Shown here: positions 2,829 to 27,555 of the stretch, one piece after another
Numbering within the stretch: the first letter of the stretch is position 1
Layout: each line of letters opens with the position of its first letter
Assembly: GCA_947475245.1 (NCBI GenBank)
Contig: CANJLW010000013.1
Location: 1 to 64,000 of the forward strand
Source: Acetobacteraceae bacterium
GTDB lineage: Bacteria > Pseudomonadota > Alphaproteobacteria > Acetobacterales > Acetobacteraceae
DNA length: 64,000 nt
Direction of reading: 5' to 3'
Position numbers and translations under genes: made by a program
Notes under the pieces: generated by a model
What the model was told of the DNA's origin: nothing
Seen by the model: only the letters and a program-made list of their open reading frames with translations
The model's database searches: none

Positions 2829-4697
2829 GTGATCATTGCCCTCGCGGGACATGTCGATCACGGCAAGACCGCGCTGATCCGCGCCCTGACGGGCATCGAC
2901 GCCGATCGGCTGCCGGACGAAAAGCGTCGCGGCATGACGATCGATCTGGGCTTCGCGCATCTGCGCCTGCCGGACGGGGGCACGCTCGGGTTCGTCGATG
3001 TGCCCGGCCACGAACGGTTTCTGGGCAACATGCTGGCCGGCGTGCTGTCGATCGACAGGGTGCTGCTGGTCGTCGCCGCCGATGACGGGCCGATGCCGCA
3101 AACCCTGGAGCATCTGGCCATCCTGCGCCTGACCGGCGTGACGGACCTGACCGCCGTCGTGACCAAGATCGATCGCGTCGATGCCGACCGGCTGGACCAG
3201 GTCCGGCGCGATATCAGCGCCTGTCTGGCACATGCGGGATTCCCGGATGCCCCGATCCGCAGCGTGTCGAGCCTGACCGGGGACGGCATCGACGATCTGC
3301 GCGCCGACCTGATCGCGAAATCCGCCGCCGCCGGGGACTCCCCGCCCAGCGGCGGCTTCCGCCTGCCGATCGATCGCGCCTTTACCGTCGCCGGGGCGGG
3401 GCTGGTCGTCACCGGAACCATCGCCGCCGGCACGGTCTCCGTTGGGGACAGGCTGGTGGTGTCACCCTCCCGCCTGACCGCCCGTGTCCGCGGGATCGAG
3501 GTCCATCACACCGCTCGGCAAACCGCGCGCGCGGGGGATCGCTGCGCGCTGGCCATCGCCGGGCCGGATGTGGAGCGGGCGGCGCTGAGCCGCGGCGACT
3601 GGCTGATCGCCCCGGAGTTGCATGCGCCGTCCCGGCGGATCGACGTGCGGCTGACTGCCTCCGCACTGCGGCCGTTGCGCCATGCCGACCATGGGATGGC
3701 GCATCTGGGATCGACCAGCGTCGGCGCGCGGGTGCTGATCGTCGACGGCGAAGCGGGGCTCGCCAGCCTGGTGCTGGATCGCCCCGTCGTCGCGCTGTGG
3801 GGCGATCGGGTGGTATTGCGCGATACCGCCACCGGTCGGATCGCCGCCGGCGGACGGGTGATCGATCCATTTTCGCCGCCGCGGCGCACCCGGCGCGAAC
3901 AGCGCGCGGTATCGTTACGCGCCGCCATGCTGGACGATCCTCGGGAAGCCTTGACGGAACTACTGGCCGCGGAAGGCTGGGTCGATCAGAGCCGGTTCGA
4001 GCTTGCCCGCAACCTGCCGAACGGGTCGGTGAGGGTTGATGGGGCGATGAGGATCGGTCGGGCGAGCCGGCCGATTTTGATCTCGGAGGCCACGCGCCGG
4101 GACATCGCCGACGCGCTGCTGAAGCGCCTGCGGGCGTGGCACGACCGTCATCCCGACCGCATCGGGCCGGACAAGGCGGCACTTTTGGCGGGCGCGGCGG
4201 CCTGGCCGGTCGAGACAGCCGAGGCGGTGCTGCTGGAACTGGTCGCGGCGGGGCAGATTCTGCGCGGCGACGCGGCCTGGCGTCTGCCGGATCACAATCC
4301 CACCTTGGCGCCGTCGGACGAGGCGCATTGGACCCGGATCGCCGCGTTGCTGGTTGCCGCCGATACGCGACCGCCGCGGGTGCGCGAACTGGCCGAAGCG
4401 CTGGCGCTGGAACCCGACGCGATGGAGGCGGTGCTGATCCGGCTGGAACGTTTCGGGCGTTTGCTGCGGGTCGCCCCCAACCGGTTCTTCTTACCGGCGA
4501 CCGTCATCGCGCTGGGTGAGATGGCGCGGGAACTGGCGGCGGACGGCGGTTTCGGCGCGGCGGATTTCAACCGTAAATCCGGTATCGGGCGGAACCTGAC
4601 GATTCCGGTGCTGGAGTATCTGGACAAGATCGGCGTCACGCAGCGATCCGGGGAGCGTCGGCATGTGTTGCGTTCGGCCGAGGAGGTTCTGGGATAG
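2829..4697 (+). CDS. selB: Selenocysteine-specific translation elongation factor SelB
   Basis: SelB is the EF-Tu-like GTPase that delivers Sec-tRNA(Sec) to UGA codons marked by a SECIS hairpin. At 622 residues it has the usual length. The G1 loop (GHVDHGKT) lies at residues 7-14, followed by the switch region RRGMTIDLGFA, G3 DVPGHE and G4 TKID. The C-terminal third contains winged-helix-type segments that in E. coli SelB bind the SECIS RNA. The start is GTG 2829. Neither selA nor the tRNA(Sec) gene is in the window. Its presence implies that the organism decodes UGA as selenocysteine, which bears directly on the TGA-interrupted gene at 25857-26468. Confidence 0.95.
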   Translation: MIIALAGHVDHGKTALIRALTGIDADRLPDEKRRGMTIDLGFAHLRLPDGGTLGFVDVPGHERFLGNMLAGVLSIDRVLLVVAADDGPMPQTLEHLAILRLTGVTDLTAVVTKIDRVDADRLDQVRRDISACLAHAGFPDAPIRSVSSLTGDGIDDLRADLIAKSAAAGDSPPSGGFRLPIDRAFTVAGAGLVVTGTIAAGTVSVGDRLVVSPSRLTARVRGIEVHHTARQTARAGDRCALAIAGPDVERAALSRGDWLIAPELHAPSRRIDVRLTASALRPLRHADHGMAHLGSTSVGARVLIVDGEAGLASLVLDRPVVALWGDRVVLRDTATGRIAAGGRVIDPFSPPRRTRREQRAVSLRAAMLDDPREALTELLAAEGWVDQSRFELARNLPNGSVRVDGAMRIGRASRPILISEATRRDIADALLKRLRAWHDRHPDRIGPDKAALLAGAAAWPVETAEAVLLELVAAGQILRGDAAWRLPDHNPTLAPSDEAHWTRIAALLVAADTRPPRVRELAEALALEPDAMEAVLIRLERFGRLLRVAPNRFFLPATVIALGEMARELAADGGFGAADFNRKSGIGRNLTIPVLEYLDKIGVTQRSGERRHVLRSAEEVLG

Positions 4698-16389: not shown

Positions 16390-17634
16390 ATGGGGACAAG
16401 CGACGCGGGCGGCATGCAATCGTCCCGCGCAACAGTCAAAAGGAACGCCCCGCTGTCACACTCGTTGTCGGACCAGGCCGAAGCAGTACTGGACCAGGCG
16501 CGCGCCCTGCTGCCGGCCCTGCGCGAACGCGAAGCCGCGACGGCGGAGGCGCGGTGTGTGCCGGATGCGACCGTCGCCGCCTTCCATGCCGCCGGCCTGC
16601 CGAACGTGTTGCAACCACGGCGCTTCGGCGGGCTGCAACTCGGCTTCGACGTTTTTTCCCGGATTGTGGAGACCCTGGCGGAAGGCTGCGCGGCCAGTGC
16701 CTGGGTCTATGCGGTGCTGGGCGAACACCAATGGATTCTCGGATGTTTCCCCGAACAGGCGCAGATCGATGTCTGGGGAGACAATCCGCGCGCCGTTGCC
16801 TCATCCTCCCTCGCCCCGCGCGAAACCGCCGTCCCCACGCTCGGCGGTTGGCGGCTGACCGGGCAGTTCCCGTTCTCCTCCGGCTGTCAGCACGCGCAAT
16901 GGGCGATCATCGGCGCGCGGGCCGAGGACGCGGCCGGCAATCGGCCAACCCGCTATATGCTGGTCCCGATGCAGGAGATCGAGCAGGTCGACGACTGGCG
17001 CGTGCTGGGACTGCGCGGCACCGGCAGCCGATCGCTGCGGTTGCGCGATGTGTTCGTGCCCGCGCACCGGACCGTGCTGCTGCGCGACCTGCTCGACGGC
17101 ACGACACCGGGAAGCGCGGTTCATCCCGATTACCCGTTGTTGCGCGCCCCGCGCGGCTTTCTCGTACCGTTCTCCCTTCCGCCCGTGGCGTTCTCTCTCG
17201 CGCGCCGAGGGCTGGATCAGGTGACGGAAGCGCTGCGGTCCCGCGTGTCGCGGGGCGTGCGGACGGTCGCGGACTCCGAGGTCACGCAGATGCGCCTGGG
17301 CGAGGCGTCCGCCGCGATCGATCTGGCGGTCCTGGTACTGCATACAAGGCGCGACCAAAGCATCGCGGCGCTGGCGGCTGGGCAGGCGATCGGTCCGCAG
17401 GACATCATGCGCAACCGACGCGATATCGCCTATGCCACCGATCAATTGCGGGTCGGTGTGCAGCAATTGATGGAATTGAACGGTGCCCGCACCGTCTACG
17501 ACAACGATCCGTTGCAGGCCGTTCTGCGTGACGTGCTGACCATCGCCACCCATTCCGTGGTGCAATTGCAGCTTGCGATGGTTCCCTACGGGCGTTCTTT
17601 GCTGGGGCTGCCGCCCGCCGCCGGTGAAGCATGA
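16390..17634 (+). CDS. Acyl-CoA dehydrogenase-fold flavin monooxygenase-like protein
   Basis: A 414-residue protein of the acyl-CoA-dehydrogenase fold, most like the two-component flavin-dependent hydroxylases (HpaB/HsaA/DszC-type). Telling segments are PRRFGGLQLGFDVF, GCAASAWVYAVLGEHQW, WRLTGQFPFSSGCQHAQW and VLGLRGTGSRSLRLRDVFVP. Such enzymes use reduced FMN/FAD from a separate reductase; two stand-alone flavin reductases are encoded at 32840 and 53948. ATG 16390 is chosen; ATG 16414 is possible. Its stop overlaps the thiL start (ATGA), so the two are translationally coupled although their roles have no evident link. Confidence 0.78.
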   Translation: MGTSDAGGMQSSRATVKRNAPLSHSLSDQAEAVLDQARALLPALREREAATAEARCVPDATVAAFHAAGLPNVLQPRRFGGLQLGFDVFSRIVETLAEGCAASAWVYAVLGEHQWILGCFPEQAQIDVWGDNPRAVASSSLAPRETAVPTLGGWRLTGQFPFSSGCQHAQWAIIGARAEDAAGNRPTRYMLVPMQEIEQVDDWRVLGLRGTGSRSLRLRDVFVPAHRTVLLRDLLDGTTPGSAVHPDYPLLRAPRGFLVPFSLPPVAFSLARRGLDQVTEALRSRVSRGVRTVADSEVTQMRLGEASAAIDLAVLVLHTRRDQSIAALAAGQAIGPQDIMRNRRDIAYATDQLRVGVQQLMELNGARTVYDNDPLQAVLRDVLTIATHSVVQLQLAMVPYGRSLLGLPPAAGEA

Positions 17635-18587
17635 CCGCCCCCCTCCCAACCGAATTCTCCCTGATCGCTCGGCATTTTCGTCCGCTCGCCGGGCCGGGCG
17701 CGCTGGATTTGCGCGATGACGCCGCCCTGTTGCGCCCGCCGCCGGGGCGGGAACTGGTGCTGACCGTCGATGCGATGGTCGCCGGCGTGCATTTCCTGCC
17801 CGACGATCCGCCCGATCTGGTTGGGCGCAAGCTGCTGCGGGTCAACCTGTCGGACCTTGCCGCCAAGGGCGCGACGCCGCTGTGCTATCTGATGACGGTG
17901 TCCACCCCGCGCGGCACGCCTGACGATTGGTATGCCGGTTTCGCCGCCGGACTGGCACAGGACCAGGCGACTTACGGAGTGACCTTGCTGGGGGGCGATA
18001 CGACCTCCACCCCCGGCCCGGTCTCGCTGTCGTTGACCATCATTGGGCATGTCGCGCCGGGTCAGGCCGTGCATCGCTTCGGCGCGCGCGCCGGGGACGA
18101 TATCTACGTCACCGGCACGATCGGCGACGGCGCGCTGGGGCTGGCCGTGGCGCAAGGGCGACTGACCGACGGCACGGGCTACCTGCTGGACCGCTACAGG
18201 CTGCCGCGCCCACGAGTCGGGTTGGCGATCGCGGGGATCGCCACGGCAAGCATGGATGTCTCCGACGGGTTGGTGCAGGACCTCGGGCATATCTGCCGGA
18301 CCAGCAATCTCGGCGCGACCTTGAACGCCGCATCCGTTCCCCTCTCCCCCGCCGCTCGGCGCGCCGGGCCGGACTGGTTGGTGACTTGCCTAACCGGCGG
18401 AGACGATTACGAGGTGTTGATGGCCGTGCCGCCGGAACGATCGGCGGCATTACACCAGGCAGCCGCCGCCATCGGCACCACCGTCACCCGCATCGGCAGC
18501 TTCCATGCCCAACCCCTTGGCGTATCGGTCAAAGGCGCGGACGGCGAACCCATGACAGTGCAAGCCGGCGGCTGGAGCCATTTTTAG
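17631..18587 (+). CDS. thiL: Thiamine-monophosphate kinase
   Basis: ThiL makes the cofactor thiamine diphosphate from thiamine monophosphate and ATP. The 318-residue length is normal. Recognisable are the N-terminal EFSLIARHFRPLAG, the Mg-binding DLRDDAALL and TVDAMVAGVHF, NLSDLAAKGATP, the glycine-rich LLGGDTTSTPG, and MDVSDGLVQDL. The start ATG overlaps the stop of the preceding gene by 4 bp. In many proteobacteria thiL sits with nusB/ribH, so this location is unusual. Confidence 0.95.
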   Translation: MTAPLPTEFSLIARHFRPLAGPGALDLRDDAALLRPPPGRELVLTVDAMVAGVHFLPDDPPDLVGRKLLRVNLSDLAAKGATPLCYLMTVSTPRGTPDDWYAGFAAGLAQDQATYGVTLLGGDTTSTPGPVSLSLTIIGHVAPGQAVHRFGARAGDDIYVTGTIGDGALGLAVAQGRLTDGTGYLLDRYRLPRPRVGLAIAGIATASMDVSDGLVQDLGHICRTSNLGATLNAASVPLSPAARRAGPDWLVTCLTGGDDYEVLMAVPPERSAALHQAAAAIGTTVTRIGSFHAQPLGVSVKGADGEPMTVQAGGWSHF

Positions 18588-25856: not shown

Positions 25857-26468
25857 CTAACGCGGACGTCGCGGCGACGGGATCGGGCAGACACCGGGGG
25901 CGGGGTTGCCGTCCTCCACCAGGTCGACCGTCTCCTGATCCAGATCGGTCAGGAACGTCGCGTGGAAGCGATTGACCAGATTGCTCAACCCCACTGTCAT
26001 GCAGATGTCCATGATCTGCGCGGTGGAGAAATGCGCGCTCAACGCCGCATAGGTCGCGTCGTCGATCGGTTCCAGTCGCGTCGACTTCTGCGCGTAGCGC
26101 ACGATGGCGGTCTGGGCGGCGTCATAGACGCCCTCCGGCAGCGGATCGTCCACCAAATGCCGCATCTGATCTTCCGTTAACCCGAGGCTCCGACCGAGCA
26201 CAGTATGGGTGGGAATTCAGTAGTAGCAGTTGTTGACGGCGGTCGCGGTCAGATACGCGAGTTCGCCGTGCGCGAGGTCCAGCGTGGTGTCGCCGCGATA
26301 AACCGTGGCGGCGAGTTGCGCGAAGGCCATGCCCGCGGCCGGGCGATTGGCCAAGGCGCGATAGATATTCACCAGCCGTCCGCGCGATTTTTGCGCGGCT
26401 TCCAGGAACGCCCTGGCATCGGCCGGTGTTGCGGGGTCGTCTTCCCGCAACAAGGGTATGCGCGACAT
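25857..26468 (-). CDS. Selenoprotein, AhpD/carboxymuconolactone decarboxylase family (TGA = Sec84)
   Basis: Read through one in-frame TGA (26217-26219), this is a 203-residue AhpD-like protein. Residues 1-83 (MSRIPLLREDDPA... to AVNNCYY) and residues 85-203 (IPTHTVLGRSLGLTEDQM...) are in the same frame with no indel. The TGA replaces the second Cys of the peroxidase-type CxxC-xxx-H centre, giving C81-Y-Y-U84-I-P-T-H88. A SECIS-like hairpin lies directly 3' of it and selB is in the window, so selenocysteine insertion is the best explanation. Relatives act as thiol peroxidases or disulfide reductases; the substrate is unknown. A gaggag ribosome site, fused to the tctC stop codon, sits 10 bp after tctC, implying co-translation. 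The alternative is a nonsense-mutated pseudogene. Confidence 0.85.
26180..26219 (-). promoter_or_regulatory. Candidate bacterial SECIS element
   Basis: Counting the T of the TGA as base 1 on the minus strand, gctc (21-24) pairs with gagc (30-33) around the loop ggtcg. T20 is bulged, G19 pairs with C34, and a lower stem forms between accc (10-13) and gggt (37-40). E. coli fdhF has the same logic: bulged U, 4 bp, and a GGUC loop at bases 22-25. Here the ggtc is at 25-28, within the spacing allowed for bacterial SECIS elements. It overlaps codons 84-97 of the gene. Confidence 0.75.
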
Positions 26469-26478
26469 CGTCTGCTCC

Positions 26479-27450
26479 TCAATCCATGGAAATCTTGGCT
26501 TCGACGATCAGCTTGCCGTTCAGAATCGTCTCCTGCTCCAACGACTTGCCCACTTCTTCCGGCGTTTGGATCGGGGTGGAGACGTTGATTTCGCGCATGC
26601 GGGCGATCATTTCCGGGGTTTTGGCGATCTCGACGATCTTCTTGTTCAGCGCCAGCACGATGTCGCGCGGCGTGCCGGTGGGGGCGGAGACGACGTACTG
26701 GATCGACACGTCGGAATCGGGATAGCCCTGCTCGGTCAGCGTCGCCACGTCGGGGAAGTCGGGGTGACGGGTCGGGTAGTTGATGTTCAGCAGCTTGAGC
26801 TTGCCGGAACGGACATGCGGGATGACGTTGATCTCGTTCATCATGTGAACGTGTCCGGACAGTAGATCGTTCATCGCGTCCGCGCTGCCGCGATAGGGCA
26901 CGTGCAGGATGTCGACCCCGGCACGGGCCTTGAACATTTCCACCCGCATCTGCGAATAGGTGCCCAGGCCCGCCGAACCATAGGCGAGCTTGCCGGGGTT
27001 CTTCTTCGCGTAATCAACGAGTTCCTTGATATTGTTGATGCCCAGCGAAGACAGGATCACGAAACCGCAGACAAGATCGCCGACGCGCGCGACCGGCACG
27101 AAATCCTTGCGCGGGTCGTAGTTCAGCTTGCGCAGTTGCGGCAGCACCGTCAGCGTCGCGGCCGGGGTGAACAGGAACGTGTACCCGTCGGGCGTGGCGC
27201 GCGCGGCGGCTTCCGTCCCGATGGCGCCCGACGCGCCGCCCTTGTTGTCGATGACGAAGGGATGGCCGAACGCGAGTGTCAGCTTTTCGGACCATGGCCG
27301 AGCCATGACGTCGGTGGCGCCGCCGGGGGCGTATGGGACGATGAGTTTGACGGGCTTCGTCGGCCATGTCTGCGCCGACGCGGAACCGGCCATCGCGACG
27401 GCGAAGACACCGGCCAGAATGGCTCCGGCAACCCTGCAAAACTTACGCAT
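26479..27450 (-). CDS. tctC: Tripartite tricarboxylate transporter substrate-binding protein (Bug family)
   Basis: A 323-residue periplasmic binding protein of the Bug/TctC family. The Sec-type signal peptide MRKFCRVAGAILAGVFAVAM... is cleaved near SASAQ. The mature start WPTKPVKLIVPYAPGGATD and the later YGSAGLGTYSQM and LHVPYRGSADAMNDLLSG are family hallmarks of the carboxylate-binding loops. It is divergent from tctB-tctA across 105 bp and is followed by the selenoprotein. The ligand, a di- or tricarboxylate or related acid, is not deducible. Confidence 0.93.
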   Translation of the reverse strand: MRKFCRVAGAILAGVFAVAMAGSASAQTWPTKPVKLIVPYAPGGATDVMARPWSEKLTLAFGHPFVIDNKGGASGAIGTEAAARATPDGYTFLFTPAATLTVLPQLRKLNYDPRKDFVPVARVGDLVCGFVILSSLGINNIKELVDYAKKNPGKLAYGSAGLGTYSQMRVEMFKARAGVDILHVPYRGSADAMNDLLSGHVHMMNEINVIPHVRSGKLKLLNINYPTRHPDFPDVATLTEQGYPDSDVSIQYVVSAPTGTPRDIVLALNKKIVEIAKTPEMIARMREINVSTPIQTPEEVGKSLEQETILNGKLIVEAKISMD

Positions 27451-27555
27451 TGTTAATCCCTCTCTGGACGGCATACGGGCCAGCCCTTAGTAGGGAGTGT
27501 TGCCGTTTCAAGTGATTTCGGCAAGCATCGCGCATTGAGACTCAAAGGGGGAAAC

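Follow-up and report, generated by a model that had tools for sequence, protein, structure and literature searches.

A predicted CxxU selenoprotein of the AhpD/CMD family in Alphaproteobacteria

The window, a stretch of 64,000 nucleotides from the genome of an Acetobacteraceae bacterium (contig CANJLW010000013.1, positions 1 to 64,000), carries an AhpD/CMD-family gene on its minus strand at positions 25857-26468, stop codon included. Reading of the frame gave 203 codons plus the stop, with a single internal TGA at codon 84 (26217-26219, minus strand) and no frameshift. This agrees with the initial annotation, which had described an AhpD-like gene of 203 codons interrupted by one TGA and free of indels. 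When the TGA is read as selenocysteine (U84), the frame is open throughout and yields the motif E69-x11-C81-Y-Y83-U84-I-P-T-H88, in which the C81-x-x-U84-x-x-x-H88 arrangement claimed earlier is recovered. The CMD domain (PF02627) was found at 36.2 bits against a cut-off of 23, and covers the TGA position when this is read as Cys. As had also been anticipated, gene calling with translation table 11 splits the gene into two ORFs, at 26217-26468 (83 aa) and 25857-26201 (114 aa).

Directly upstream, on the same strand, lies a gene for a tctC-type solute-binding protein (26479-27474; PF03401, 190.7 bits), which is local context only. Ten bases (26469-26478, minus strand) separate the tctC stop from the ATG of the selenoprotein gene. 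They contain the GGAG of an SD-like GAGGAG, of which the first two bases fall within the tctC stop codon. Two further features of the window bear on the reading of the TGA, namely a SECIS-like hairpin (26183-26203, minus strand) and the gene for the selenocysteine-specific elongation factor, selB, which the initial annotation had rightly placed in the window (2829-4697, plus strand; TIGR00475, 411.2 bits, cut-off 242.25) and which encodes a GHVDHGK motif.

The same codon is TGA in all carriers that we examined. These comprise 20 genes, namely the window gene, 18 orthologues that are 63-76% identical to it and one distant relative; TGA was present in 20/20 and Cys in 0/20, and we found no Cys-bearing orthologue among them. 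A search of the window's genus found a close copy in 6 of 33 genomes, including the window's own, each with the TGA. At the family level, 397 genomes were drawn and four carriers were found at E<=1e-25, all with TGA and two of them new. In the class, 2 of 385 genomes matched at E<=1e-22, the window's own and G442, of which the latter holds the distant relative (L103, minus strand 1501-2076) with TGA at the aligned codon. The phylum search of 398 genomes returned only the window's gene at E<=1e-20. In these family, class and phylum searches scoring was limited to eight candidates per genome, and the majority of groups were represented by a sample of their genomes. A single-sequence scan of named genome contigs found no relative, while an alignment-based scan of the same kind of contigs found 18 loci at 63-76% identity (7 already known, 11 new), with TGA at codon 84 in 18/18. 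The carrier records are labelled Acetobacteraceae (including Rhodopila globiformis DSM 161), Reyranellaceae, Hyphomicrobiaceae, Rhizobiales and Rhodospirillales; one is labelled Chloroflexi, on a 4-kb contig that is possibly mis-binned. The earlier argument that the TGA falls on the active-site Cys position beyond chance is thus borne out by its recurrence at that codon in every carrier, and a sequencing error at 26217-26219 is ruled out by its occurrence in independent genomes.

Substitution patterns were similar on the two sides of the TGA. Between the window gene and its R. globiformis orthologue (L085), dN was 0.190 and dS 0.856 before the TGA, and 0.151 and 0.821 after it. In comparisons of the window gene with five other orthologues, and in two closer pairs, dN was likewise well below dS on both sides, with dS high and variable across comparisons (in L086, 1.53 before the TGA and 0.75 after). 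Since dN is far below dS to a similar degree before and after the TGA, selection acts on the downstream part, too, as coding sequence that continues the upstream frame. Among the 20 copies, two look damaged, one by an internal deletion with a stop (G005/L099, at about 121-200) and one by a frameshift (G011/L101, at about 3400-3450); this reflects either decay or draft assembly error.

Cys at position 84 does occur in more distant CMD relatives. From the genus genomes and plasmids we took 36 such loci, of which 27 aligned over position 84 and nine gave no alignment. Residue 84 was Cys in 16 of the 27 and Glu in 11, the Glu rows forming a separate CMD subfamily, while E69 and H88 were retained in 27/27. 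Hence, the Cys or Sec homologues that the initial annotation had looked to for support exist, with the orthologues themselves all carrying TGA. In a tree of 44 rows, which included 26 of the 27 aligned relatives (all but L030, whose sequence was too short), one clade (95/94) held the 17 intact Sec proteins without any Cys row inside it. Support was weak (43/81) for uniting all 18 U rows, L103 among them, in one clade, and L036 and L103 had long branches. Plasmid matches without a listed gene were considered as possible Sec genes and rejected; annotation in these records is sparse, and the five that were fetched have Cys. Phage matches to the window protein were weak (27.9-30.6% identity).

A hairpin with the inner stem GCUC/GAGC and the loop GGUCG, extending to as many as eight pairs in some orthologues, is predicted just downstream of the UGA, with its loop starting 21 nt after it. 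In the TGA-anchored alignment, G21 and T23-G29 were invariant in 20/20 rows; these positions cover the loop and the greater part of the 5' side of the inner stem. C22 was replaced by T in L101. The codons concerned are nearly fixed, with CTC in 17/17, GGT in 17/17 and CGG in 15/17 intact sequences at codons 91-93. Mean codon entropy was 0.17 for these three codons versus 1.30 across the remaining 56 of the 59 conserved degenerate sites. Random triples had an entropy as low in 0.043% of cases (P=0.00043), a value that is descriptive only because the three sites were picked after inspecting the alignment. The core string GCTCGGTCG was found at this site in 0/27 non-Sec relatives, a set that includes the 16 with Cys at position 84.

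Evidence from base pairing was more mixed. In the eight-pair stem, which was named by hand, 86.9% of 160 cells pair, versus 29-49% when the stem is slid by 1-3 columns. Of 500 shuffles, 7 reached the percentage paired and 3 the covariation score. Three covariation measures did not exceed the 500 shuffles (both-side-changed cells, 71; further pair types, 158; both-side-changed pairs, 486), and the stem slid by -1 had three both-side-changed pairs versus one in the named register. In L087 and L096 two stem pairs are broken, with the same stem possible one base over. Minimum-energy folds contained the inner stem, in register or shifted by one, in 16/17 sequences at 25 nt, 11/17 at 48 nt and 7/17 at 60 nt; the window sequence kept it at all three lengths. 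An Rfam scan of the window at the gathering threshold gave no match. Taken as structure, the predicted SECIS hairpin is supported by moderate evidence. The same GCTCGGTCGGAG core also follows the TGA in the distant CMD selenoprotein gene L103 of G442. This suggests a SECIS core that is older than the clade, or one that is bound to the codons encoding LGRS.

The genome of the window encodes the components that selenocysteine insertion requires. Besides selB, we found selA on contig C10 (C10:36828-38279), adjoined by a tRNA-Sec gene with anticodon TCA, and selD on contig C5 (305.2 bits, cut-off 125); thus the selA, selC and selD genes on which the initial annotation had made its proposal depend are all present. 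The genome also has an FdhA gene, in which a TGA gives NQARV-U-HGPT. The selB gene lies on a different contig from selA and selC, and there is no single selA-selB-selC operon. For Alphaproteobacteria, a passage of a 2026 review describes selC nested in selB (PMC13188914). Ten other tRNA-Sec-like matches in this genome were set aside; three of them, including the sole one above the cut-off, were checked with ARAGORN and are tRNA-Ser or tRNA-Gly, and the other seven were all under the cut-off. The thiL gene at 17631-18587 matched SelD weakly and was not accepted as a selD gene.

Among the carriers, tRNA-Sec was found in 20/20 (6/6 in the genus, 14/14 outside it) and selA in 18/20 (6/6 and 12/14), the exceptions being L087 and L098, whose draft genomes gave no selA match. 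In L067 (G008) and L070 (G003) the tRNA-Sec gene lies ~2 kb from selA and is not adjacent to it. Six of the 33 genus genomes lack both an above-cut-off selA and tRNA-Sec, and the window-type gene occurs in none of them. This absence proves little, with six carriers among the other 27 genomes. One genus member (G029) has FdhA with an in-frame TGA, yet its assembly, which is 89% complete, gave no selA and no tRNA-Sec; in another (G020) selA and tRNA-Sec were likewise not found, and its FdhA has no TGA.

The split of the gene into two ORFs under table 11, together with the further damage in two other carriers, might be explained by a nonsense mutation that broke an AhpD/CMD gene formerly with Cys84. 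However, a pseudogene would hardly keep the identical TGA in 20/20 carriers, and this conservation argues strongly against decay, as do the similar purifying selection before and after the TGA, the near fixation of the hairpin codons and the presence of tRNA-Sec in every carrier. We consider this explanation extremely improbable. An alternative explanation might be that the UGA is decoded as a different amino acid, through suppression or a changed code, or that the locus encodes two separate proteins, for which the GTG start at 26201 in the downstream ORF could be invoked. Yet the UGA falls exactly on the active-site Cys position, the genome has a full Sec system as well as an FdhA gene with UGA, and the CMD domain spans the join between the two ORFs, which makes this alternative highly unlikely too. 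The selenoprotein interpretation of the initial annotation is therefore supported, and judged from these sequence comparisons the window gene almost certainly encodes a CMD/AhpD-family selenoprotein with Sec84.

In AhpD, the second residue of the redox Cys pair is the one that attacks, and it is this residue that Sec84 would replace. The residues E69, C81, Y83, U84 and H88 were invariant in 17/17 intact sequences. They fit the pattern E-x11-C-x-[H/Y]-C-x3-H with U replacing the second C, and their spacing is identical to that of Glu36, Cys48, Tyr50, Cys51 and His55 of Pseudomonas aeruginosa PA0269. These PA0269 residues correspond to Glu118, Cys130, His132, Cys133 and His137 of Mycobacterium tuberculosis AhpD, for which a proton relay has been proposed (both in passages of PMC3141380). 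Hence, the window protein shares the relay of Glu, Cys, His/Tyr, Cys and His with both enzymes, and differs from them in having Sec where they have Cys. The best PDB matches by sequence, 2pfx (an uncharacterized peroxidase-related protein) and 3c1l (a putative antioxidant defense protein), are both AhpD-like.

A mechanism can be proposed. The hairpin just 3' of the UGA would recruit SelB together with Sec-tRNA(Sec), with its anticodon UCA, so that Sec is inserted at residue 84, a reading that the comparisons strongly support. If the protein resembles the M. tuberculosis and P. aeruginosa enzymes in this respect, E69, Y83 and H88 would form a proton relay, and the C81/U84 pair would carry out the redox chemistry. 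The U84 selenolate might reduce a hydroperoxide, or another oxidised substrate, after which C81 would resolve the intermediate by forming a selenenyl sulfide, and a thiol or dithiol donor of the cell would regenerate the enzyme.

Whether peroxide reduction is the main function can be weighed against the surroundings of the gene. Conserved operons or fixed partner genes across lineages were sought around 18 loci and none was found; the underlying clustering of neighbouring ORFs was done on GC-rich DNA, with shadow ORFs included and short flanks at some loci. The initial annotation had known of AhpD-like selenoproteins in print but of none in a Tct-linked setting. Such proteins have indeed been published, and the Tct linkage proved not to be a defining feature: the adjacent tctC occurs in this genome alone. 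At the 18 other loci no TctC gene was adjacent (the sole TctC match lay ~7 kb away, in L088), and no TctA match was found nearby at E<=1e-8. The neighbours in the genus were MFS, amidohydrolase and putative alcohol dehydrogenase-like genes, and those in other lineages solute-binding, molybdenum hydroxylase and enoyl-CoA hydratase genes; the Pfam scan of neighbours covered ten proteins, two of which had no Pfam match. At three of the 18 loci, each from the window's genus (L084, L099, L101), a gene of the AhpC/TSA peroxiredoxin family lies beyond the next gene on the opposite strand, an assignment for which one of the three loci was scanned with Pfam. This is a faint hint of peroxide metabolism.

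Possibly, the main task of the selenoprotein is not peroxide reduction; its CxxU site might instead reduce disulfides, pass electrons to another peroxidase, sense redox state or serve in a catabolic pathway. AhpD is described as an adaptor for AhpC (PMC3141380), and the neighbours vary, those that were scanned being mostly transport and catabolic genes. Against this stand the invariance of the AhpD-type catalytic set and the lack of a conserved partner gene across the lineages searched. Because no lineage-wide fixed partner was found, the enzyme may work alone. We give peroxidase activity as the main function of the window protein about an even chance of being right; a different main task is a serious possibility, falling just short of that.

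CxxU selenoproteins of the AhpD/CMD kind have been in print since 2005, and the window gene is not categorically new. The Sargasso Sea survey reports CxxU selenoproteins of two groups, one AhpD-like (27 sequences) and one with a CMD domain (4) (PMC1088965), and the GOS survey reports AhpD-like 1 and AhpD-like 2, both with CxxU (PMC2398784). The 2026 review lists several AhpD and CMD selenoprotein families, gives TIGR01926 as the domain of AhpD-like CxxU selenoproteins, and names MBW1767730.1 as representative of the CMD-like and MCB9421940.1 of the AhpD-like selenoproteins (PMC13188914). AhpD-like 2 (pfam02627) and the Sargasso CMD selenoprotein have the same Pfam domain as the window protein and Sec as the second residue of CxxU. 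In contrast to these marine metagenomic sequences, the window clade comes from genomes mostly labelled Alphaproteobacteria, a comparison made by description only.

The window protein matched five NCBIfam models, each below its cut-off. The best match was TIGR01926, a peroxidase-related enzyme, at 56 bits (cut-off 81.8), and 17/17 aligned members of the clade matched this model at E<=0.001. NF041238 (AhpD_rel_CFYUT) and NF053654 (YciW-related (seleno)protein) are AhpD-related and their NCBI titles admit selenoproteins. The CFYU string of NF041238 recurs in part of the window clade, whereas the window protein scored 23 bits against the cut-off of 175 for this model of 357 positions; for NF053654 it scored 23.2 bits against 310.

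For the Alphaproteobacteria, a 2006 survey counts a single selenoprotein family and names FdhA as the sole selenoprotein of the class (PMC1794560). A 2025 paper credits the alphaproteobacterium Afipia carboxidovorans with three known selenoprotein genes, in a passage that does not give their identities (PMC12013277). The main text of an ISME 2016 survey does not mention AhpD (PMC5029168). Among the open-licence records retrieved, we found no paper on Rhodopila and selenocysteine, and only unrelated titles on selenoproteins in Acetobacteraceae or Reyranella. From its sequence, the window gene represents a new branch of a known kind of selenoprotein; this branch looks Sec-only and is possibly a separate family. 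In a fuller form, this would be a Sec-obligate family of CMD peroxidases, in which the detected members all have UGA and none Cys, in which even a distant relative retains the SECIS core sequence, and which was undescribed in Alphaproteobacteria beside FdhA, having been missed through split gene calls. We regard this fuller proposal as evenly balanced between right and wrong.

Our results thus add a well-supported selenoprotein in Alphaproteobacteria, with the named strain Rhodopila globiformis DSM 161 as one of its carriers. The gene exemplifies those that routine annotation breaks in two or labels as pseudogenes, and the orthologues found here provide material for a family model. Because no Cys orthologue was found, the clade is well suited to studying why Sec is retained in an enzyme. 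If the family is truly Sec-obligate, it may mark an enzyme chemistry that truly needs selenium.
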